Shown one piece after another: positions 392-18,579 of a DNA stretch of 29,726 nucleotides. Source of the DNA: a virus. The notes under the pieces are model-generated. The model was not told the origin of the DNA and ran no database searches. It was given only the letters and a program-made list of their open reading frames with translations. Position 1 is the first letter of the stretch; each line of letters begins with the position of its first letter. The translations under genes were made by a program, and so were the position numbers. Where the stretch lies: positions 1 through 29,726 of IMG/VR virus record IMGVR_UViG_3300027770_000021; one strand, written 5' to 3'.

Positions 392-522
392 TCTGCCTCC
401 GGCTCTGGCTCAGGATATCGTTCGTTCTTGCCGACAACCTTCCCTGTCTCAGCGTCTCGCACGATCTCCACAAGCATCCCAGTCTCTGGGTCTAGGTAGG
501 CTGGTTCAGTGATGACTGCCAT
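388..522 (-). CDS. Small acidic hypothetical protein (44 aa)
   Basis: The ATG at 522 overlaps the TAA of the fibre gene (TAATG), and the TGA at 388-390 overlaps the GTG of the tail-terminator gene (GTGA). The short product begins MAVITEPAYLDPETG and ends in a run of P/E pairs (PEPEPEAE). The coupling on both sides in the same style as the rest of the genome is the main evidence that it is real. It contains a DPETG...VRDAETGKVVGKNERY segment of the kind seen in small phage structural-block proteins. Function unknown. By position it may be a minor connector or fibre-associated peptide. Confidence 0.6.
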   Translation of the reverse strand: MAVITEPAYLDPETGMLVEIVRDAETGKVVGKNERYPEPEPEAE

Positions 523-2159
523 TATGAGACCTCCGCATAGAATCCACCGCCAGTTCCAGCGATTCCAGCAGTAGAACTAGCCACCAAGTCTGATTGTGAA
601 GCCTGGCTATAGTGCTGTCCGCCCGTTGCTGCATTTGCTGCGGTGCTTGTTCTCAATGTAGCACCTAAGATATTTGCTACTGTTGTTGCAACAACAATAA
701 ATGAAATCCAATACTCTGTCCCAGCCGTTAGTGTATATGTCGCTGGGTATCCACCAGTTGTGTCAAGTGCTCGGGTATACTTTGTACCAGTAGCGCTAAA
801 GATACTTGTATCACTTGCCGTTCTTGCTACAAGGGTAAATGTAGTGCCGCTTCTTGTATAGATTCCAAACCTTACAAGCGTTGCAGCAGTATTTGCGATT
901 GTTCCAGAAGTAAACGAAATATTACTTACGGTGAAGTTTTTATATGGTATTAGTCTACTATGAGTGATTGATCCACTTGCTACGTTGGAGTTTGATGTCA
1001 GGACAAAAAGAGGATGACTTCCAATAACTCCAGAACTTCCAAACTGACTCGTTCCATACGCCGTACCAGCCACTGCCGCATCAGCCGTAGCCTGTGCTGT
1101 AGCGGCATTGGTGACCCCTGTTGAGCCTCGGTCATAGGCTGACTTCACTGCCGTAGGGGTGGCAGCAAGGACACTGCTGGTGGTAGAGGTTGAGTCACTG
1201 AGCTGCACCACGCCAGCCGATGCAGTACCTGCTGCGCTCACGCTGATGTTTGCGCTGCCGCTTGTGCCTGAGTTGGTGAGTGGGGCATTGACCGTGACTA
1301 CCCCTGATGAGCCTGCTGCCCCTGTTGCGCCAGTGGCCCCAGTTGCGCCGGTGGCTCCAGCAGAGCCAGCCGCACCTTGAGGAACTCCGAAGTCAAAGAC
1401 GGCTGCGGAGGATGAGCCTGTGTTGCTGACTGTTGCGGAAGAGCCAGCAGGCAAAGTGGTCGTCGTGCCGACGGAGATGGTTGCAGCTGCACCAGCAGCG
1501 CCAGCCGAACCAGCAACGCCTTGAGGAATGCCGAAGTTGAATGTGCCTGCGGCAGAACTGCCGACATTGGCGACGGTGGCCGCTGATCCTGCGGCGAGCG
1601 TCGTGGTTGTGCCAACCGAGATCGTGGCTGCCGCTCCAGTTGCTCCTGTGGCGCCAGTTGCTCCGGTGGCGCCTGTCGCACCTGCGGCACCAGCCGAACC
1701 AGCAACGCCTTGAGGGATGCCAAAGTTGAATGTGCCAGCGGCAGAACTGCCGACATTGATGACGGTGGCTGCCGAGCCTGCGGCGAGCGTTGTGGTCGTA
1801 CCGACGGCAATCGTCGCGGCCGTCCCTGTCGCTCCAGTGTTGCCAGTGTCACCCTTCGCTCCAGTTGCGCCGGTGGCGCCTGTTGCACCTGCGGCACCAG
1901 CCGCACCTGTTGATCCTTGCGGCCCTTGCGGAATTGTGAAGTTGAAAGTGCCAGCGGTTGAGGAGCCAGAGTTGGTGACCGATGCAGTCCCGCCAGGTGC
2001 GCCTGTCGTTGTGGTGCCTACGGCAACGCTTACCACCGTTGCGCCTTGAGGACCAGTCGATGCAACGGAGACAGTCTGCGTGACTGGGCTGACGGTGACG
2101 ATATCCCTGCCGTCGTCGATCGTGACGGTCTGCTTCGTGACAGAGACGCTGACACTCAC
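522..2159 (-). CDS. Collagen-like, Phage_fiber_2-type fibre protein (545 aa)
   Basis: A long fibre starting with GTG (GTGA overlap with the upstream gene). Residues 40-286 alternate beta modules of about 38 residues (the VGTTTTLAAGSAATV...GTFNFGIPQG type, four copies) with collagen-like Gly-X-Y tracts at about 79-112, 151-177, 214-224 and 261-286. Residues 305-365 (TASAGVVQLSDSTSTTSSV...AVKSAYDRG) match the Phage_fiber_2 repeat found in tail fibres. Residues 375-545 form a separate beta-rich tip rich in Thr and Ser. The gene lies inside the head-tail connector block, unlike the usual tail-fibre position after the tape measure, so it may form a head or neck fibre or be a relocated receptor-binding fibre. 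The codons for the C-terminal tip (522 to about 1050) are visibly richer in A+T than the neighbours. Confidence 0.8.
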   Translation of the reverse strand: MSVSVSVTKQTVTIDDGRDIVTVSPVTQTVSVASTGPQGATVVSVAVGTTTTGAPGGTASVTNSGSSTAGTFNFTIPQGPQGSTGAAGAAGATGATGATGAKGDTGNTGATGTAATIAVGTTTTLAAGSAATVINVGSSAAGTFNFGIPQGVAGSAGAAGATGATGATGATGATGAAATISVGTTTTLAAGSAATVANVGSSAAGTFNFGIPQGVAGSAGAAGAAATISVGTTTTLPAGSSATVSNTGSSSAAVFDFGVPQGAAGSAGATGATGATGATGAAGSSGVVTVNAPLTNSGTSGSANISVSAAGTASAGVVQLSDSTSTTSSVLAATPTAVKSAYDRGSTGVTNAATAQATADAAVAGTAYGTSQFGSSGVIGSHPLFVLTSNSNVASGSITHSRLIPYKNFTVSNISFTSGTIANTAATLVRFGIYTRSGTTFTLVARTASDTSIFSATGTKYTRALDTTGGYPATYTLTAGTEYWISFIVVATTVANILGATLRTSTAANAATGGQHYSQASQSDLVASSTAGIAGTGGGFYAEVS

Positions 2160-3346: not shown

Positions 3347-4483
3347 TTAGGAAGCGGCGTTCTTGAGGAACTTGACCGCGTTCGCCTGAACGAGGTTGGT
3401 CGCACCACGAACGGTGCACTTGTACGAGATCAGGTCGGTGTCCCAAGCAAACTCCTTGCTGGACTCGATCTGAACCCCACCGACGAGTACGGTCACGATC
3501 TGACCGAGGTCGCCGAACAGGATGCCGCGAGCGTTCGCGGCGAAGTCTGCGATTCCACCGGTCGTGTAGACAGGCTTGCCGAGGAGACGATCAACGCCAC
3601 CCTGACCACCTGGCTGGAAAATCGGCACTGACGAGGAAGTGATCCCAAGAACTGTTCCGAGGTTGGTGTCGGTAGTCAGCCAGCCAGCCTTGCCCGCGTT
3701 ACGGTATTGCTGTTTCACGGCATACTGCAAGCCCACTAACTCGGAATATGTGACGGTGGTTGCCGACGAGCCAACCGCGTACGAACCAGCCGCAGCCGCG
3801 ACAGCGGTGCCTGCAACGGCGCCGTGCTTGACTGCAACTTCTGAACCCATCTTGTCAGCGATCATCGCTGAAAGATCGAATGCCGCGTCGTTCACCAACT
3901 CATTGGTGACCTGAAGGATGATGCCGTACTTCACTGGGGTTAGGTCCAGGGAGGACAGCGTTCCGTCAGACTCGGTGATCTGTGCTGCTTCAGCAAATGA
4001 ACCAGCAGTTCCCAAAGCCGTGACGCGAGGGAAGGACAACTGATTGCCGGTGCTGACATTGTAAACCGTTGTTGCGTTTGCATCCAGGAATGGGTTGATC
4101 TGACCAGCGACAACATTCACTCGGGTGAAGATGTCGACTGGGTTCCCAAGACCGGTTGCGCGGGAAACATCGCGCTTCTCAAAGGTCTTGGACCCACCAT
4201 TGCGGCCAAGTTCTCGGAGTTCTGCGTTGTCGTCGCGGTCAGCCTTTGGAGCGATCACAGCAGCGAACTCGGCACGGGCTGCATCAGCCTGTGAACGAGC
4301 CTCTGTTGCGGCCTTCTCCGTGCGGATTGCTTCAGCGATTGTGCCAGCCTCTGCAACGAGACCGTCAAACTGCTGCTTGGCGTCACCCTCTAGAACTCCA
4401 CCCTTCTCGGCGAGGTCCGTGGCGATCGCCTGAGCCTGCGTGAGCAGGTTCGCTCGCTTGTCAGCGAGTGCGTCGTATGCCAT
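3347..4483 (-). CDS. Major capsid protein, HK97 fold (378 aa)
   Basis: The start at ATG 4483 is chosen because AAAGGAG lies seven bases upstream. An in-frame ATG at 4504 lacks such a site. Residues 1-95 are helical and charged (KRANLLTQAQAIATDLAEKGG...AEARSQADAARAEFAAV), which is the HK97-type delta/scaffold region. The mature capsid domain follows from about residue 105 (ATGLGNPVDIFTRVNVV, then FAEAAQITESDGTLSSLDLTPVKYGIILQVTNELVNDAAFDL, a typical E-loop and P-domain helix pattern). The scaffold region should be removed by the protease encoded just upstream. It has a long untranslated leader and a strong hairpin after it, as expected for the most abundant protein. Confidence 0.95.
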   Translation of the reverse strand: MAYDALADKRANLLTQAQAIATDLAEKGGVLEGDAKQQFDGLVAEAGTIAEAIRTEKAATEARSQADAARAEFAAVIAPKADRDDNAELRELGRNGGSKTFEKRDVSRATGLGNPVDIFTRVNVVAGQINPFLDANATTVYNVSTGNQLSFPRVTALGTAGSFAEAAQITESDGTLSSLDLTPVKYGIILQVTNELVNDAAFDLSAMIADKMGSEVAVKHGAVAGTAVAAAAGSYAVGSSATTVTYSELVGLQYAVKQQYRNAGKAGWLTTDTNLGTVLGITSSSVPIFQPGGQGGVDRLLGKPVYTTGGIADFAANARGILFGDLGQIVTVLVGGVQIESSKEFAWDTDLISYKCTVRGATNLVQANAVKFLKNAAS

Positions 4484-4608
4484 TTGGTTACTCCTTTGCG
4501 TCACTTGGACGCGCTTCTATTCCTTGCTATTGCTATTTCGACTCACCAAGCGGGATGACCTGATCGCGGGCTTGCCTACATCGGGCAGCGGGGCGGGGTC
4601 TCGTGGCT
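4484..4608 (-). promoter_or_regulatory. Capsid gene leader (125 bases)
   Basis: This is one of the longer non-coding gaps in a genome whose genes mostly overlap. On the minus strand it has a G+C-rich first part and an A-rich second part containing the near repeat AATAGCAATAGCAAGGAATAG, then AAAGGAG before the start. No convincing -35/-10 pair is visible (a TTGGTG occurs without a good -10). It may hold a capsid promoter of unfamiliar type or an RNA leader that enhances translation. Confidence 0.4.
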
Positions 4609-6117
4609 TTAGAGTTCCTGATCCATCAAGCGCTTGGTCTGCAACATCGCCAACGCAACGGATGGATCAACTCCAACCGGCTTTGGCGCGAGCCTCTCGC
4701 GCACCTGGTCAATCACCTGAAGATCATCTGGCGTCAGCGGGTTTGCTGACTTGATGTTCTCCAGCGTAGTCATTAACCGGTCGCCGTCTACGCCGAGCTT
4801 CGCGGCGGACAGTTTGCGAACAGCCGTGAGACCAATGGTTGCTGGGTAAGCAGGGGTCTGCCCAGCGGACAGGACGCTCACCTCAAACAGATTGATCTCG
4901 TTGAGTGTGCGGATATTCTCTTCCCAGACATCGCCGCTCTTTGGGATGGAGAACCCGAAGGACATCCCCATCGAGCGCGCTTCGTAGGTCAGTTTGCTGA
5001 TGACGCTTGCGGCATCTGGATCGGCTGGGTCAAGCTTCGCTTCAACCTTCAAGCCGCGTGCATCCTCGGTCAGTGTCAGACGGCCGCTTGCGGTCGTTGC
5101 AAGTGCGCGGGTCTCGTCGTGTCCGAAGAGGAACGAGATCATCTTCTTGCCATCGGCAACGCGCTTCAGCGTTCGGGTGAAGGCGTTCGGCGCGATGATC
5201 TCGGTGAACTGCATTCCGTCGGATGGCACATTGAACAGCGCGGCGTAGCCGCTGAAGGTCTTCTGTCCATCCTCACCCTCGGTGACGGTGAAGTCGCCCA
5301 TTGGAAGTGCGCGAGTCTCAAGTTCCTTCAAGTCAATGATCTCCCTGTCTTCAAGCGCGGCAACGATGCCTTCTGCCCATCGTACAACGCGGTCGGCGCC
5401 GTCTGATTGTGTGGGGTTTACGCCCCAAAGGTAGGCGGCCACAGCGCCAGGTCCAGGGAAGTTCTCGTTGGATTCGTCGCTGTTCTGCGGTACGCCTTCC
5501 CAGTCCACGCGATGCCGCGCGATCCACGCGATCATCCTTCGCGCCTTCTCATCGCTGACGCTGCCACCGGCAAGGTCGCGTGCGTCGCTGATTGTCTGCT
5601 CGACCAGTCCGTCCCCGCCAAGTCCTTCGGCGTAGTAGGCAAGTCCCTTGTCGGCTGCGCTCTGGATGTAGGCAGGAACATCGACCTGCGCGCGGATGGC
5701 ATTCTGCTCCTCAGTCACATCCATCGTTGAGGCGATCGCCTCTTCTGGAGTTAGTGCCTCAAGCCCCAACTCACGAGCCATAGCGCGCACATCGGCGTCG
5801 TTGTCCACGACCATCTCAATGTTGTCAGCGCCAAACTCCTCAATGAGCAGTTTGTATTTGTATTCCTTGAACGCCAGCCCAGTGGCAAACGGCGTTCCCT
5901 CAAAGTCGTTCAGGTGTACGGCCTCAACTCCAGCCACCTTGTTCTCCTGAAGCCAAGCGCGGGTCTCTTGAAGTCGGTCAATGCTGCGTGCGCTTACGAC
6001 GATGATCTGCTCTTCGCCGCTCATTACTTGCTCGTTCAGCCAGTCAATGTAGGGCTGATTGGGCGTGTCACCAGTTGTCGTCAGCGTGCCGTCAATGTCG
6101 GTAATGATGTAGCTCAC
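4609..6117 (-). CDS. HAD-phosphatase domain fused to HK97-type prohead protease (502 aa)
   Basis: Starts with GTG (GTGA overlap with the portal stop, AGGAG upstream). Three parts are visible. Residues 1-120 form a HAD domain: DIDGT with D7 and D9, VVSAR with S42, the lysine-rich KEYKYK near 85-89, and VVDNDADV with D105 and D107. It resembles the phosphatase half of T4 polynucleotide kinase. Residues about 147-250 form a helical module (VPAYIQSAADKGL...GPGAVAAYLWG...VVRWAEG) that also accompanies proteases in other actinophages. Residues about 285-425 are the S78 prohead protease (FSGYAALFNVPSD, H333 in FGHDE, S386 in SMGMSFGF). The protease should cut the capsid scaffold region. What the HAD domain does in the prohead is unknown. 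Confidence 0.9.
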   Translation of the reverse strand: MSYIITDIDGTLTTTGDTPNQPYIDWLNEQVMSGEEQIIVVSARSIDRLQETRAWLQENKVAGVEAVHLNDFEGTPFATGLAFKEYKYKLLIEEFGADNIEMVVDNDADVRAMARELGLEALTPEEAIASTMDVTEEQNAIRAQVDVPAYIQSAADKGLAYYAEGLGGDGLVEQTISDARDLAGGSVSDEKARRMIAWIARHRVDWEGVPQNSDESNENFPGPGAVAAYLWGVNPTQSDGADRVVRWAEGIVAALEDREIIDLKELETRALPMGDFTVTEGEDGQKTFSGYAALFNVPSDGMQFTEIIAPNAFTRTLKRVADGKKMISFLFGHDETRALATTASGRLTLTEDARGLKVEAKLDPADPDAASVISKLTYEARSMGMSFGFSIPKSGDVWEENIRTLNEINLFEVSVLSAGQTPAYPATIGLTAVRKLSAAKLGVDGDRLMTTLENIKSANPLTPDDLQVIDQVRERLAPKPVGVDPSVALAMLQTKRLMDQEL

Positions 6118-7304
6118 TTAGGCGGCTCCTGACCCACCACTCCAATGTTCAGCGGCTTCCAGTATTCATCTCCTGCTGGTCCGATTGGCGAGCGGTCCTC
6201 AAGTGAGCGCACTTCGTTCAGGCTCAGGAAGCCGTTGTTCAGCGCGGTGCTGTAGGAGTTATATCGCTCCTGCGTTGTGGCGCGGAGCAAGCCATCAAGG
6301 GTGAACTTCAGGAAGGTCTGCTGGCTGCCCGGCACGAGCCGCTGGAAGCCAGCCTCAAGTCGAGCGATGAGTGGGCCGAGTCCAAGACGCAGCCACTCAA
6401 TGCCGATCAGTTCCACCGAAGCGTAGGAGGTGTTGCCACCTGGCACCTGAAGCATATGGAGTGGGATTCCGTAGAGCCGCGCGATTGACTCCACGCTGTA
6501 GTGCATCGTCTCAACGAGCTGCAAGTCGGAGACCTTCGCACCGAGTTGCTGGAAGTCTGCGCCGCCGGTAAGGACGGCGACCTTGAAGGCGTTCTTGACG
6601 CTGCTGTTGCGGCGAGAGAATCCGTTGCGAAGTGCGTCAGCCTGGTCCTGTGTCAGTTCGCCTGGAACCTTCACGATGCCGCCAACGCTTGCGTTGTTCT
6701 CGTAGAACTTGGCGCTGAAGAGTTGCGTTGCGGCCGCAAGTCCGAGAGTCACCTTGTGATGCTCGATTGGCGACAAGCCGCGCAGCGACTCGCCAGTGCC
6801 AAAGAGTGTGATGTGAACGATGGAGTCAGCGCCGAGGACGGTGACGCCGTTGGTGGTCTTGATGTGGTAGCGCGGCTCGCCGTTCTCGTGCTGAACTACA
6901 TCAACCTTCTGCGGATCAAGCACGCGAGTCTCAACGACATCGCCGTTTCGACCAGTCAGGAAGAGGACGAAGGCGTTGCCGTCTAGCAGCAAGCTACTGG
7001 TTACACGATGCTTGAAGTCAAAGGATGTGAAGTTCGGGTTGTTTGGTAGCGGCGTGTCAATCCAGGACGGTCGCGGACGATATGGTCGGCGCGTTCCGTC
7101 AATGCGGATGTAGGTATCCCACGGCAGTGCGGCAACAGTGTCGGCGTACAACTTGACGGCCGCATAGACGGCGCCAATGCTGGTCGCGTTCTCCTGATTG
7201 ACTGAGACGCCTGCGGCTGAATCTGTCTCGCCGCTGAACCATCGTCCTCCGATGGTTCGCTCCTCGGATTGCTGGCGCCCTAGAAGGCGATCAAGGATTC
7301 CCAT
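6114..7304 (-). CDS. Portal protein, HK97 family (396 aa)
   Basis: The product begins MGILDRLLGRQQSEE and contains portal signatures: VYAAVKLYADTVAALPW (N-terminal helix), SSLLLDGNAFVLFLTGRNG, VLDPQKVDVV, HITLFGTGESLRGLSPIEHHKVTLGLAAATQLFSAKFYENNASVGGIVKVPGELT and IARLYGIPLHMLQV. These define the HK97-type dodecameric portal through which DNA is packaged and ejected. AAGGAG lies seven bases before the ATG. At 396 aa it is at the compact end of the family. The gene sits between the large terminase and the protease, the standard order. Confidence 0.95.
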   Translation of the reverse strand: MGILDRLLGRQQSEERTIGGRWFSGETDSAAGVSVNQENATSIGAVYAAVKLYADTVAALPWDTYIRIDGTRRPYRPRPSWIDTPLPNNPNFTSFDFKHRVTSSLLLDGNAFVLFLTGRNGDVVETRVLDPQKVDVVQHENGEPRYHIKTTNGVTVLGADSIVHITLFGTGESLRGLSPIEHHKVTLGLAAATQLFSAKFYENNASVGGIVKVPGELTQDQADALRNGFSRRNSSVKNAFKVAVLTGGADFQQLGAKVSDLQLVETMHYSVESIARLYGIPLHMLQVPGGNTSYASVELIGIEWLRLGLGPLIARLEAGFQRLVPGSQQTFLKFTLDGLLRATTQERYNSYSTALNNGFLSLNEVRSLEDRSPIGPAGDEYWKPLNIGVVGQEPPK

Positions 7305-9400: not shown

Positions 9401-10600
9401 CTACTTCTTGCGAGAAGCGCGGCGCTCGGCGCGGTTCGCCGGCGCGACTGGCTGCGTGCGAGCTGCGAGCAACTCGATCAGCGGCCGCCAGTGCTTGTCG
9501 TAGATCAGGTCGGCGTCGTAGTGCAGAGCGAACGAGCGCACCTTGATGCGATCCACGGTGCCAGCCTTCGTCTCTTGGTAGTTCATCTCCAGCGCGCCGT
9601 GGATCTGCCGCGTGTCAGGCACGATCCAGAACGACCCCTGGAACTCGTCCCACATCTTCTGTCCGTGGATCAGCACGCTGTGCGCTCCTGCCAACTCTGC
9701 GCTGCCAGCGAACTGGCTGACGATGACCGGCGTGCCGCACGCCTGCGCCTCAATGGTAGGGATGCCGAAGCCCTCCCCCATTGAGGTGGCGAGCAGGACA
9801 TCAGCCGCCGAGTAGATGTGCTTCAAGTGTTCATTCGGGATGCCGTTGCGGAACGCCATCTGCTCTGGCCACCTGAAGCGGTCCATCGGTGCGCCGATGA
9901 AGCTGAGGAAGCGCGGCAAGTTCATCCCATCGCTGATCCCTTCAGGCTCGGTGTGGATGTATGCCCAAGCGTCTGGGTGCTTCTTCATATGCTCACTCAA
10001 CGCAAGCAGGTTCTCAGCGAACGCCTTGCGGATCGGGATGCGTCCACGGTTCGCGGCGTTCATCACTGTCAGGTGCGCGTCCTCAGGGATGCCCATCGCC
10101 TTGCGTCCAGCCTGTCCGACATCCGTGAAGAGTTCCTTCGTGTCAATGGCGTGTGGGATGTATGTCACGCGCTCTCTCGGCATACCGCGCTTGAGCAACT
10201 GCTCCTCGCCGTAGCGCGTCATCGCAATCGCCATCGCGCCTGTTGCGTTGAAGAAGTCTGTCACGCCTGGAGGCACAGGGTCGTGATCAATGGGAACCCA
10301 CCACGAGAGGTTCAGGTCCTTCAGTTGGTTGGCGACAGGCATCATCGGCCAGGCGTCAAAGAGTCCGATGCTGACGCCGCCCCACGCCTTGAGCTGCGCT
10401 GGAAAGATGTCCAGGCTGTATTGCTTCAAGCCGTCAGCGAAGACAGGGATGTTCTGATAGGTGATGCTCGCCGCCGCGCCGTAGTTGCTGATGACGGCAA
10501 CCTCGTGTCCGTCAGCCTTTAGCCGGAGTGCGACCTGTGCGGTCTGCTGCCCATAGCCAGATGGGATGTGTGGTGCGTTGCTATACCAGCCGATCCTCAT
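9401..10600 (-). CDS. Glycosyltransferase, GT4-like (GT-B fold, 399 aa)
   Basis: Start at ATG 10600 (MRIGWYSNAPHIPSGYGQQT), with AGGAGG five bases upstream. A further in-frame ATG lies at 10648 but lacks a site. The N-terminal half has the GT-B opening (YSNAPHIPSGYG, HEVAVISNYG). The C-terminal half has the donor-binding GEGFGIPTIEAQACGTPVI with the E-x7-E pair E276 and E284, characteristic of GT4 enzymes. These transfer sugars from nucleotide-sugar donors. In a phage it could modify host surface glycans to block superinfection, glycosylate virion proteins, or modify DNA. The substrate cannot be read from sequence. The methyltransferase at 11869-12435 is a possible partner. Confidence 0.85.
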   Translation of the reverse strand: MRIGWYSNAPHIPSGYGQQTAQVALRLKADGHEVAVISNYGAAASITYQNIPVFADGLKQYSLDIFPAQLKAWGGVSIGLFDAWPMMPVANQLKDLNLSWWVPIDHDPVPPGVTDFFNATGAMAIAMTRYGEEQLLKRGMPRERVTYIPHAIDTKELFTDVGQAGRKAMGIPEDAHLTVMNAANRGRIPIRKAFAENLLALSEHMKKHPDAWAYIHTEPEGISDGMNLPRFLSFIGAPMDRFRWPEQMAFRNGIPNEHLKHIYSAADVLLATSMGEGFGIPTIEAQACGTPVIVSQFAGSAELAGAHSVLIHGQKMWDEFQGSFWIVPDTRQIHGALEMNYQETKAGTVDRIKVRSFALHYDADLIYDKHWRPLIELLAARTQPVAPANRAERRASRKK

Positions 10601-10608
10601 TGCGCCTC

Positions 10609-10920
10609 CTACTTGTGCCGCGTCTCTCTGCCGTGGCAAGGTCTGCATACTACCCGAAGCCTGTGCTCTGGTGCGAGCAGTGGGCCGCCCTTGCTGATCG
10701 GATCAAGGTGGTCCACGGTCAAGTCGGTGGTTTTGCCACAAACTTCGCACCACGGTCGCTTGCTCCTGATCTGGCTGCTCAACTTACGCCACGCTGGGTC
10801 GGCGTAGGGGTTCGGTCTGCCCTCCTTCCACTTCGCCTGAGCTGCCGCTCGATGTGTCTGGCATCGGTTGCCCACCATCGTCAGCACACCGCAGTCAAGG
10901 CAGGGACGCTGGAAGGTCAC
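10609..10920 (-). CDS. HNH endonuclease (103 aa)
   Basis: Start at GTG 10920 is preferred because GGAGG lies five bases upstream. A TTG at 10980 gives a longer reading. The product has a CLDC...CQTH Zn pair near the N-terminus, then WRKLSSQIRSKRPWCEVCGKTTDLTVDHLDPISKGG...HRLRVVCRPCHGRETRHK. This is the complete HNH motif (DH, N/H region, CxxCH) with Zn knuckles. Small HNH nucleases beside terminase genes are needed for DNA packaging in several siphophages (known for HK97-like phages), so this is a packaging-associated nuclease rather than necessarily a homing enzyme. The glycosyltransferase gene now separates it from the terminase. Confidence 0.9.
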   Translation of the reverse strand: MTFQRPCLDCGVLTMVGNRCQTHRAAAQAKWKEGRPNPYADPAWRKLSSQIRSKRPWCEVCGKTTDLTVDHLDPISKGGPLLAPEHRLRVVCRPCHGRETRHK

Positions 10921-14609: not shown

Positions 14610-14797
14610 TGTCCGACCCTGTTCAGCACGGCGACCAGCCGCTCAACCATCTTCTCAATGGCGTCCTGAGCGGTTGCGCCGGTGGTCTTGATCTCGCCAG
14701 TCTCATCGTCAAGGATGACCGTCCAGACGCCTTCAATCTGCACGCAGTCCTGGACTCGATAGCCGACCTGTGCGGCAAGCACTTCAAGTTCGTTCAT
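14606..14797 (-). CDS. Hypothetical protein (63 aa)
   Basis: ATG 14797 overlaps the kinase stop (ATGA), and its stop overlaps the next start (TTGA). The sequence (MNELEVLAAQVGYRVQDCVQIEGVWTVILDDETGEIKTTGATAQDAIEKMVERLVAVLNRVGH) predicts a three-stranded sheet and a C-terminal helix, as in dsRNA-binding-like or DUF-type small domains. I do not recognise a family. The gene is supported by coupling on both sides and a coherent amphipathic pattern. Confidence 0.7.
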   Translation of the reverse strand: MNELEVLAAQVGYRVQDCVQIEGVWTVILDDETGEIKTTGATAQDAIEKMVERLVAVLNRVGH

Positions 14798-15357
14798 ACA
14801 ACCTCCTCCATAGCATCCGTGATCTGACGATACGCTTCTTCTGGCGAGATGTCCGAGGTGTCCACCGTAAGGTCAAACTCGGCTGCTGTCCATCCCATTT
14901 CTGTGATGTCGCCTGTGCCGATCAGTTGCCCACCCATCCTGCGCTCCCTGACCTCGTGGTCAGCGGTGAGGCGCACGACGAAGATCTGTGGGTCAACCAT
15001 CCTGAGGTAGTCCACCTCCTCCGGCAGACGCACATCGTCAATGACCACGCCGTAGCCCATCCGCTGGATCTCAAAGTAGTCCTGACGCCAGACGCGGAGC
15101 CAGAACTTGCGGTCCACCTCACGCAAGGCCGCACCAATGTCTTGGAGCAGCTCGCGCCCAGTGATCACCGTCAGCCCTGAGTAGCGGTCCACCGTCAGGG
15201 TCTCGTCCTTGCCCAGTTGCCGATAGGCAAGGTTGGCGAGGTGCTTGATCGCGTCAGCGATGCCGTGCCGCTGGTAGCCACGATGCTCACCGAACAGCAC
15301 CGCGATGCTTGACTTCCCAGCACCCTGTGGTCCGAGGATCGCCACCGACCTACTCAC
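14794..15357 (-). CDS. Deoxynucleoside monophosphate kinase-like P-loop protein (187 aa)
   Basis: Starts with GTG (GTGA overlap). LGPQGAGKSS at residues 8-17 is a Walker A loop. YGVVIDDVRLPEEVDYLRM at 102-120 is the hallmark of T4 gp1-type dNMP kinases (the 'DVRFPNE' motif), with RERRMGGQLIGTGDITE a lid-like Arg-rich segment. TGRELLQDIGAALREVDRKFWLRVW fits the nucleotide-binding helix. It would phosphorylate dNMPs from degraded host DNA to feed phage DNA synthesis. It is the only clear nucleotide-metabolism enzyme in the genome. Confidence 0.85.
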   Translation of the reverse strand: MSRSVAILGPQGAGKSSIAVLFGEHRGYQRHGIADAIKHLANLAYRQLGKDETLTVDRYSGLTVITGRELLQDIGAALREVDRKFWLRVWRQDYFEIQRMGYGVVIDDVRLPEEVDYLRMVDPQIFVVRLTADHEVRERRMGGQLIGTGDITEMGWTAAEFDLTVDTSDISPEEAYRQITDAMEEVV

Positions 15358-16183: not shown

Positions 16184-16443
16184 TTCGTCCTCCTGTTTCT
16201 ATTCTTGATTTGACCGCTGAGTAGGATCATCGCCTCATCAAGCGAAGTGGCCACCGCAACGATCTTTAGTTCTGATTGTGGTTCTCCATACGGATAGCAA
16301 CTAACTGACCAACTATTCGCCCATTTGACCGTAATCGTGGATCGACCGTGAGCCTCTTCATAAAGCCGGACGAGCGAATACAGTTCGCCAGCGACCATTT
16401 GTGATGCGACCTGGAGCTCTCGTGGCGTTGCGGCCAGCATCAT
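16180..16443 (-). CDS. Hypothetical protein (87 aa)
   Basis: ATG 16443 overlaps the endonuclease stop (ATGA). The protein begins with an amphipathic helix ([27 protein letters not shown]) and continues with strands ([37 protein letters not shown]) and a basic end (KNRNRRTK). No known family is recognised. Coupling to the endonuclease VII gene suggests co-expression in recombination or replication. Confidence 0.7.
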
Positions 16444-16865
16444 TTCGCGACCCTCTTCATAGCCTTGCCGCGTAGCCCCTCACCAAGACCCCTATTGCGA
16501 GTTTCAACTAGCAGGCTCTTGCCCAAGTAGCGATTGACCCACCAAGAGAACTCGGCGACAAGTTCTAGTTGACCAAGAAGCGAGTTGTGCCTGAAACAGA
16601 GAACACCTCGAACGCATTTGCCACAAGAACTAACGCCGGGACAGCAACTGTGGTCGTGGTCGATGGCAAGTGTCTCCGTGGTCACGCAGCCAGGAAAGAA
16701 GCACCCCTCAAACAGCAGGCCCTCAACCTCGCTTTCAGCCAAGTTGTACTTAGCGGCTCGCGTCCTAAGATTTTTCTTCGCCTTGATTTCTTTTTCCCTG
16801 CGGACCCATTCGTTATCGGGCTGAGCGATTGCCATAACTGCCAACACATTTTTGACTTGATCCAT
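16440..16865 (-). CDS. Recombination endonuclease VII-like protein (141 aa)
   Basis: Start at ATG 16865 ([15 protein letters not shown]) with AGGAGG four bases upstream. A longer reading to 16907 enters the intergenic hairpin. The core [46 protein letters not shown] has the endonuclease VII layout: CxxxC, LAIDHDH, RGxLCxxxN..LG, with a Zn site from the Cys pairs and a catalytic HNH-type core. A basic helical region precedes it ([18 protein letters not shown]). Such enzymes resolve branched DNA before packaging. Confidence 0.85.
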
Positions 16866-16882
16866 TTGTCCTCCTGCTAGTT

Positions 16883-16910
16883 GGGGAGCGGCAGAACCCG
16901 CTGCCACCCC
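16883..16910 (-). terminator. GC hairpin between the annealing protein and endonuclease VII genes
   Basis: GGCAG/CTGCC arms around a six-base loop are extended by GGGG/CCCC after a small internal loop. It lies between the TAA of the upstream gene (16922) and the AGGAGG site at about 16871. There is no T-tract. The otherwise fully overlapping operon opens here, so it may be an attenuator or an mRNA processing or stability element. Confidence 0.45.
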
Positions 16911-16921
16911 CCCAGAGATGT

Positions 16922-17635
16922 TTAGAACGGCAACTCGCTGAGGTCTTCCTCAGGCACGAGCTTGGGCTTTGCCGGTGCCGCAGAGTGCGCTGCGACCCAC
17001 TGCTGGCTTGGCTTGTCCTTGCAGAACGAGCCGTCAGGTGCTTTGTGGCTCGCCGCCCAGAACGCGTTGTAGGGCTTGCCACTGGCCTTGCTGATGCCGC
17101 CTGGCTTCAGTTGCCACTCCTCGCCGTGCGAGCAGGCGCCGTCGTTGGCTCCAGCTACAAACAGCATTGCCGCCGCCGCCATCACCTGATCGTCTGCGGA
17201 CATCCTGCTAGAAGCCTCTGGCGTGCCTGTAGGAGCCACGGAGCGGGGCGCAACCCTGCCAAGTGGCACTGGGACACCCTTCTCTGGGCTGTAGAGGCTC
17301 CTGCCCACGCCGACCTGAGCGGCGCAGCGCCGGAGCGCATCCGAGGCTGCTGACTTGAGCGGCTCGTCATCCTGCGTGGAGTTCGGATAGCCGAAGTCCT
17401 GCTTGATGGTGGACTTGCCCTCGATCACGATGACCAGCGAGCCGTGAACCACGCCACGGATCGGGTCAGCCACCTTGACCTCAAACTGCCAGCCCTCAAT
17501 GCCGAGGACATCATCCAGCCGCTGCGCGACCGCTCGCGCATCGGCGTAGGTGAAGGTCATCCCTGCTCGCCCTCGGCGATGCTTCAGGTCCTTCTCATCG
17601 AATGGTGCTGCTAGTGCTGCTGCGATCTTGCTCAC
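16922..17635 (-). CDS. Rad52/22-like single-strand annealing protein with SSB-like tail (237 aa)
   Basis: GTG 17635 ([12 protein letters not shown]) overlaps the exonuclease stop as GTGA, with GAGGAGG upstream. Longer in-frame readings overlap YqaJ. Residues about 5-125 ([49 protein letters not shown]...[18 protein letters not shown]...[25 protein letters not shown]) are the Rad52-type annealing core (DxR...A..L..V.G...W). Residues about 165-215 hold a Zn-like module ([29 protein letters not shown]...[10 protein letters not shown]). The protein ends [12 protein letters not shown], similar to the acidic D..PF tip of bacterial SSB. It pairs strands produced by the YqaJ exonuclease encoded just before it. 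Confidence 0.85.
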
Positions 17636-18579
17636 TTGTCCACCTCCTCTGTCTTGAACTTGAATACTCGCGCACCGGGAACTTCCCGCGTGTACGCATC
17701 TACGACTTCCACCGCAGGCTTCAGAGCCTCCAGCAGAAGTTTGTAGTCCACCTTCTGGCTTGACTTGTTCTGCTTCCAAGTCGCAGACCAGCCTTCGCCT
17801 ACGACGCCAGCCTTCTCGCCGATGGCCTCCTTGAGACTGATGGCGAGGTTCTGGAGTTCTTGGTCCAGCAACTTGGCTTCGTAGTGCTTCTCGGCGTAGA
17901 GCTGCGCCACGCGGTTGATGCCAGTGTCAGCCTGCGCCCACTCCTCCAGTCCGTTCCACGGCGTGACCGCCGCCAGCGCGTCGCTATCCTCGCCTTGCAA
18001 GGTCGGCGGCGTGTTGGTGGCGAGCAGTTCGCGAAACTCCTCTGCCTTGCGATACAGCTGCGCCTGATACGCGGCGTCTGGCTTCACCCGCTCAATGCGG
18101 AAGACCAGACCACCGAGTAGCACCGCCACATCGCACCACGGTGCGTTGGTCACGAACATCTGCCACTGCACCTGCGCGACCACCTCTGGCGGCACAGGGT
18201 GCAGGCTCCATCGAGGTGAGGTGCTGGTCTTGATTTCCACCAAGCCGTCCTCGCCAACGATGGTGCGGTCCAGCGACGCCATAACCCACGGCAGATGCTT
18301 GAGCCGGACAATGCCGTTGCTGCGGCGTGTCTGGCGGCCAGTCTCCATTTCGTAGAACTCAGCCACTGCGTTCTCCAGCAGGATGCCGCGAACGGCGGCA
18401 GGACCTACAGGGTCTGGCTGGAACTTCCCAAGCTTCTCAGCCCAGAGCTGGTACGGCGTCTTGTACGGATTCAGCCCTGCGATGACTGAGACCTCAGTTG
18501 CCGTGATGCCGTCAGCCCGAAGTGCGAACCACTCAGGACTGCGCTGCTCTGCCTTGACGAACTCGTATTGCTTGCTCAC
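17632..18579 (-). CDS. YqaJ-family viral exonuclease (315 aa)
   Basis: GTG start (GTGA overlap) with AAGGAGG seven bases upstream. The lambda-exonuclease-like motifs are all present: RSPEWFALRADGITATEVSVIAGLNPY (R13, E16), RGILLENAVAEFYE (E69), SLDRTI (D104), VEIKTS (E115 and K117) and VPPEVVAQVQWQMFVTN (the QxQxQ-type helix). It degrades one strand of dsDNA ends 5' to 3' and hands ssDNA to the annealing protein encoded next, forming a SynExo recombination pair. This pair also supports concatemer formation when no phage polymerase exists. Confidence 0.95.
   Translation of the reverse strand: MSKQYEFVKAEQRSPEWFALRADGITATEVSVIAGLNPYKTPYQLWAEKLGKFQPDPVGPAAVRGILLENAVAEFYEMETGRQTRRSNGIVRLKHLPWVMASLDRTIVGEDGLVEIKTSTSPRWSLHPVPPEVVAQVQWQMFVTNAPWCDVAVLLGGLVFRIERVKPDAAYQAQLYRKAEEFRELLATNTPPTLQGEDSDALAAVTPWNGLEEWAQADTGINRVAQLYAEKHYEAKLLDQELQNLAISLKEAIGEKAGVVGEGWSATWKQNKSSQKVDYKLLLEALKPAVEVVDAYTREVPGARVFKFKTEEVDK

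Follow-up and report, generated by a model that had tools for sequence, protein, structure and literature searches.

The window, the whole 29,726-nucleotide stretch of DNA analyzed here, carries an open reading frame encoding, in one protein, a predicted HAD phosphatase domain, a helical module (MID) and an S78 prohead protease; like other genes for S78 proteases, it is located between the portal and HK97-type capsid genes (Table 1). The ORF begins with a GTG at position 6117 that forms a 4-bp overlap with the portal stop (GTGA), and AGGAG, a Shine-Dalgarno sequence, lies 8 nt upstream, so that the HAD and the protease belong to one reading frame and translation unit. Internal starts that might permit dual initiation were found at M273 (ATG), which lacks a good ribosome site, and at V134, a GTG within the first linker, and neither is convincing. 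When the 502-aa protein was searched against Pfam, PF04586 matched residues 280-428 with 101.9 bits against a cut-off of 21, and PHROGs returned head maturation protease (1.2e-36), while a phmmer search of the PDB with the whole fusion protein gave nothing beyond a chance match. The catalytic residues of the S78 domain, H333 (His) and S386 (Ser), are kept in all 131 distinct full-length copies of the protein. The full-length structural model contains three folded parts, joined by linkers in which pLDDT falls below 50 (residues 133-142 and 257-272).

Table 1. Positions of the fusion ORF, its parts and other genes of the window (aa, residues of the fusion protein).
Feature	Position	Strand	Remarks
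Collagen-like (GXY repeat) protein, probably tail or head fibre	522-2159	-	
HK97-type major capsid protein	3347..4504	-	PF05065, 9.7e-30
Whole fusion ORF, HAD - helical module - S78 prohead protease	4609..6117	-	502 aa, single frame
Helical C-terminal tail, aa 431-502	4612..4827	-	least constrained part, dN/dS 0.25
S78 prohead protease domain, aa 272-430	4828..5304	-	PF04586, 5.3e-29; H333, S386
Linker 2, aa 257-271	5305..5349	-	E267-x-R269-[A/S] at 5311-5319; candidate cleavage site before protease
Helical module (MID), aa 147-256	5350..5679	-	GL..GDGL...AR...W..RH; phrog_2859, phrog_80
Linker 1, aa 127-146	5680..5739	-	R142-[A/V] at 5692-5694; candidate self-cleavage site freeing the HAD
HAD phosphatase domain (predicted), aa 1-126	5740..6117	-	D7, D9, S42, R44, K84/K87, D105
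Portal protein	6114..7304	-	PF04860, 2.2e-75; directly upstream of fusion ORF, 4-bp overlap
Group 1 glycosyltransferase	9401-10648	-	inside head/packaging region
P-loop kinase, deoxynucleotide monophosphate kinase-like	14794-15357	-	PF21448, 6e-9
Endonuclease VII, Rad52-like and YqaJ recombinase genes, adjoining	16440-18579	-	

The initial annotation had described a complete-looking HAD catalytic set, a helical module and an S78 protease within one protein, and the single ORF, the Pfam matches and the model all agree with this description; the motifs D7-I-D9-G-T, S42, K84/K87 and D105-N-D107 lie where it had placed them. The HAD is of the capless type, and AlphaFold2, supplied with an alignment of 30 HAD sequences, predicted a Rossmann-like HAD fold and no other (pLDDT 95.4, pTM 0.89). 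Comparison of this model with the PDB using Foldseek gave the phosphatase of T4 Pnkp as the first match (5uj0, E 2.4e-6, TMq 0.70), followed by bacterial Pnkp1, Nir2 LNS2 and lipin. The proposed resemblance to polynucleotide 3'-phosphatases is borne out by this best match, by PHROGs families annotated as polynucleotide kinase (phrog_415, 2.8e-9; phrog_505, 3.8e-5), and by HAD_PNKP (PF25109), which matches 28 of the 30 HAD family members. For the window protein itself the HAD_PNKP match is sub-threshold over residues 4-122 of the whole protein (E=6e-4), and reaches 1.6e-5 for the HAD domain alone, with 25.5 bits lying below the gathering cut-off of 27.6. S42-x-R44 and D105 agree with PNKP motifs, and by sequence alignment there is no conserved arginine or aspartate at the places of the T4 Pnkp substrate residues R176 and D254. 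Lipin/LNS2-type HADs match nearly as well as PNKP, and no 5'-kinase domain was detected by Pfam within the 502 residues. Compared with T4 Pnkp and bacterial Pnkp1, the domain shares the capless fold (TMq ~0.70-0.74), DxDGT, S-x-R, the lysine and the motif IV aspartate, but identity is only ~20%, and the domain is fused to a capsid protease. The HADs of lipin and Nir2 LNS2 have a similar fold score and motif spacing, and differ in being eukaryotic lipid phosphatase or lipid-binding domains. On the basis of the model, the predicted fold is of the PNKP/lipin type, whereas membership in PNKP is not established, because the Pfam score is below the cut-off, the protein lacks a fused kinase, and sequence alignment shows no conserved equivalents of R176 and D254.

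The same fusion was found in many other phage proteases. IMG/VR contigs yielded 182 complete HAD-MID-S78 ORFs, a redundant set, since several contigs were retrieved repeatedly, with 140 distinct HAD sequences as HMM hits; 173 of the HAD-MID-S78 proteins fell into 62 clusters at an identity threshold of 95%, and into 21 when it was lowered to 80%. Thus, the fusion is shown to be conserved in a clade of uncultured freshwater phages. The window is part of a metagenomic virus record, which could raise the suspicion that the HAD is not truly part of the protease and that the fusion is an artefact of annotation or assembly. This is refuted by the single open frame with its own Shine-Dalgarno sequence and by ~180 collinear ORFs from many metagenomes, and we regard it as having almost no chance of being correct; we likewise rejected a mis-assembled ORF and erroneous read-through from a free-standing HAD gene. 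Three HAD-S78 ORFs in IMG/VR loci have no MID (L095, L114 and L105). One locus (L103:3371-4585) displays a natural in-frame loss of most of MID, with HAD and S78 retained. No stand-alone HAD was present in the IMG/VR loci fetched, and tblastn with the HAD alone found nothing in 50,697 phage records. HAD-bearing alignments found no relative in two scans of 84,980 bacterial and archaeal genomes; their patterns came from the HAD region only, so that other proteases of the family may have escaped. This negative result fits a non-lysogenic life but does not prove it.

Conservation of the HAD active site was evaluated in the 131 distinct full-length copies, in which D7, D9, R44, R48, K87 and R111 are invariant. 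Motif II has S or T at position 42 in 131/131, motif III has K87 in 131/131, and motif IV has D105 in 129/131. Because selection of these copies had used a [DA]xDGT filter, motif I was rechecked on all 140 distinct HMM hits, of which 138 have DxDx(T/A); of the remaining two, one is cut by a contig end (L011) and the other lies at a non-coding junction (L210). Both aspartates are present in copies with DNT or DGA, and the divergent HAD of L262 and L278 (~33% identical) keeps DIDDT, TGR and DNN. The aspartate pair singled out in the initial annotation, D7 and D9, is therefore found in every complete HAD copy, down to ~33% identity, and a degenerate HAD was rejected. The main departure from the family pattern is in motif IV of L012 and L013, where SDD replaces DND. 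Median dN/dS values for close pairs, which are non-independent, were 0.106 for HAD, 0.127 for MID, 0.062 for S78 and 0.245 for the C-terminus. That the active site is complete and under purifying selection, as read from these sequences, argues for catalysis.

Examination of relatives revealed that the N-terminus of the protease is an array of swappable cassettes, and that the HAD is one module among several. The segment between HAD and protease had been called a helical linker module; a helical module is indeed present, but it is itself one of the swappable modules. CPGWA-type, HiPIP-like, DUF5824 or DUF3721 modules stand in place of the HAD or beside it, and 70 relatives have MID-S78 without a HAD. 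One relative (L211) combines CPGWA, HiPIP-like and DUF5824 modules without HAD, and L024, whose 5' end is cut, is alike as far as it reaches. Other combinations are HAD with DUF5824 (L012/L013), HAD with DUF3721 (L080), CPGWA-HAD (L246) and, in a protein of 773 aa, CPGWA-HiPIP-HAD-DUF5824 (L262). The HAD and the protease exchange independently, since L012/L013 are 96% identical to the window in S78 and 39% identical in HAD, while L032 and L104 are 41% identical in S78 and 73% in HAD. The nearest isolate by terminase (46%) and protease (40%) is Pontimonas phage phiPsal1, whose prohead protease (MG835450) has a MID-S78 core 40% identical to that of the window and likewise a multi-module N-terminus, but with CPGWA-type and HiPIP-like Cys modules where the window has the HAD. 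Kinship with phiPsal1 suggests a freshwater actinobacterium as host of the group. In Actinomycetia phage DSL-LC01 (L290:5596-6639), a DUF5824-type module lies in a gene shortly after the portal gene; this module is thus also found outside S78 proteins, still in the head gene cluster.

The two linkers are otherwise variable and disordered, and R142-[A/V] and E267-x-R269-[A/S] are their fixed points. R142 is present in 127 of 131 aligned copies, and E267 and R269 in 131/131, with A or S at residue 270. Among 98 distinct HAD-to-MID linkers, 97 contain R[ADV], and 74 contain E.R[ADV], compared with 8 expected in shuffles (maximum 13). R[ADV] also occurs at the junctions of the CPGWA (12/14), HiPIP-like (27/32) and DUF5824 (22/27) modules, with the arginine ~4-6 residues ahead of the next module; these counts exceed those in all 500 shuffles, which control for composition and not for shared ancestry. 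In the capsid protein, E109-x-R111-[D/A] (positions 4172-4180) is present in 140/140 and marks the presumed delta-domain (scaffold) junction, at a depth close to that of the HK97 delta-domain junction. The motif common to the capsid protein and the protease linkers is E-x-R|[A/D/S] or R|[A/V], a likeness of sequence only. The two cuts mapped in the capsid proteins of phage phi12 have nothing in common but a basic P1 residue, K or R (PMC8569155). Taken together, the linker fixed points, the junction enrichment, the capsid motif and the basic P1 of phi12 are most simply read as self-cleavage at R|A/V/S, and the junction motifs hint at possible removal of the HAD, in place of a role within the protease. 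ETRA also recurs within folded parts (residues 51-54 and 335-338), which means that a site is not defined by the motif by itself, and in linker 1 of the window P3 is A, not E (AIR|A). Helix capping, or module edges set by recombination, could also account for R-[A/V].

These observations led us to favor, with a probability of roughly 0.45, a reading in which the 502-aa product is the precursor of a prohead protease and carries a catalytically competent HAD as N-terminal cargo, which it would itself release in the prohead. The precursor would be enclosed in the prohead, where the activated S78 protease would cut the capsid delta domain and also cleave itself in the linkers, at R142|A and at E267-T-R269|A, freeing a HAD of ~16 kDa within the head. 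The freed HAD might act during packaging, or stay in the head and travel with the DNA. Its substrate would probably be PNKP-like, either a nucleotide or the phosphate at the end of a nucleic acid, and we guess that the likeliest benefit would lie in countering host defence or damage by host nucleases. Because cleaved fragments leave the head in HK97, as does the protease, a 16 kDa domain would not necessarily be retained.

Similarities to known systems are consistent with parts of this arrangement. The window shares with HK97-type systems the gene order terminase-portal-protease-capsid and a capsid protein with an N-terminal scaffold-like region, and the protease resembles the HK97 gp4 type (PF04586/phrog_80) in its fold, H333 and S386. 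The N-terminal HAD and helical module set it apart, and HK97 gp4 is not known to carry such modules. T4 internal proteins and Alt are cargo cut by the prohead protease gp21 within the head, but their genes are separate from that of the protease. Temperate phages have MuF polymorphic toxins, in which variable enzymatic domains are borne by a head-module protein and are proposed to be phage-delivered (PMC5576092), but there the carrier is MuF, not the protease, and the fused domains are toxins. The initial annotation knew of no role for a HAD-protease fusion, and our literature search, which left out most subscription journals, likewise found no description of one. Domains on a head protein (MuF) and protease-cut cargo (T4) are thus already known, while cargo joined to the protease itself appears to be new.

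The HAD might instead stay attached and serve head assembly, as a folded pro-domain or targeting module setting the copy number, position or timing of the protease, with its phosphatase chemistry directed at a head protein or with none. Its place is invariably the protease N-terminus or close by, its module mates CPGWA and HiPIP-like look non-enzymatic, and relatives cope with very different modules there, which fits a generic pro-domain. However, a mere pro-domain has no need to preserve all of its catalytic residues in copies as divergent as ~33% identity, and the junction motifs resemble the capsid junction. We consider this account rather unlikely. We found no specific support for phosphate-based control of head maturation, one of two roles put forward in the initial annotation.

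The other role, packaging-coupled DNA-end repair, would require a true PNKP 3'-phosphatase cleaning DNA ends at or in the head. The T4 Pnkp fold match, the HAD_PNKP matches across the family and the PNKP-like S42-x-R44 and D105 are in its favor. The lack of conserved equivalents of R176 and D254 in the sequence alignment and the almost equal scores of LNS2/lipin HADs count against it; terminase makes its own ends, leaving the need unclear, and a Pfam screen of 24 of the window's ORFs revealed no partner ligase for RNA or DNA. We found no specific support for this role either, and hold it to be quite improbable. The lack of a ligase among the ORFs screened also weighs against a special case of the cargo reading, an injected counter-defence enzyme that would enter the host with the DNA and remove a phosphate produced by a host nuclease or signal system, for example from cleaved RNA ends, as do low dN/dS and the fact that retention and injection are inferred steps. 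Repair of ribotoxin-cleaved RNA does involve PNKP-type phosphatases (PMC4411300), MuF proteins already offer a case of effector domains joined to a head-module protein (PMC5576092), and module swapping fits an arms race, yet we judge this special case to be improbable.

The proposed release of the HAD inside the new head suggests that these phages use attachment to the protease as a means of loading enzymes into their heads. A broader proposal, which we advance tentatively and consider doubtful, is that the protease is a self-processing polyprotein carrying variable enzyme and binding modules in front, which would enter the prohead at protease stoichiometry, be released at the same motif as the capsid scaffold and be co-delivered with the DNA, the HAD being a virion phosphatase. 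If the protease does free its own fused modules, small phages would have a simple way to load enzymes into heads with no separate targeting signals, module boundaries would be predictable from the junction motif, and cargo could be listed across uncultured phages. The DUF5824, DUF3721, CPGWA and HiPIP-like modules would then acquire a testable role.

Among the other genes of the window, that for the P-loop kinase may point to modified nucleotides. The glycosyltransferase gene has a parallel in phiPsal1, where glycosyltransferases are likewise encoded near the capsid gene.
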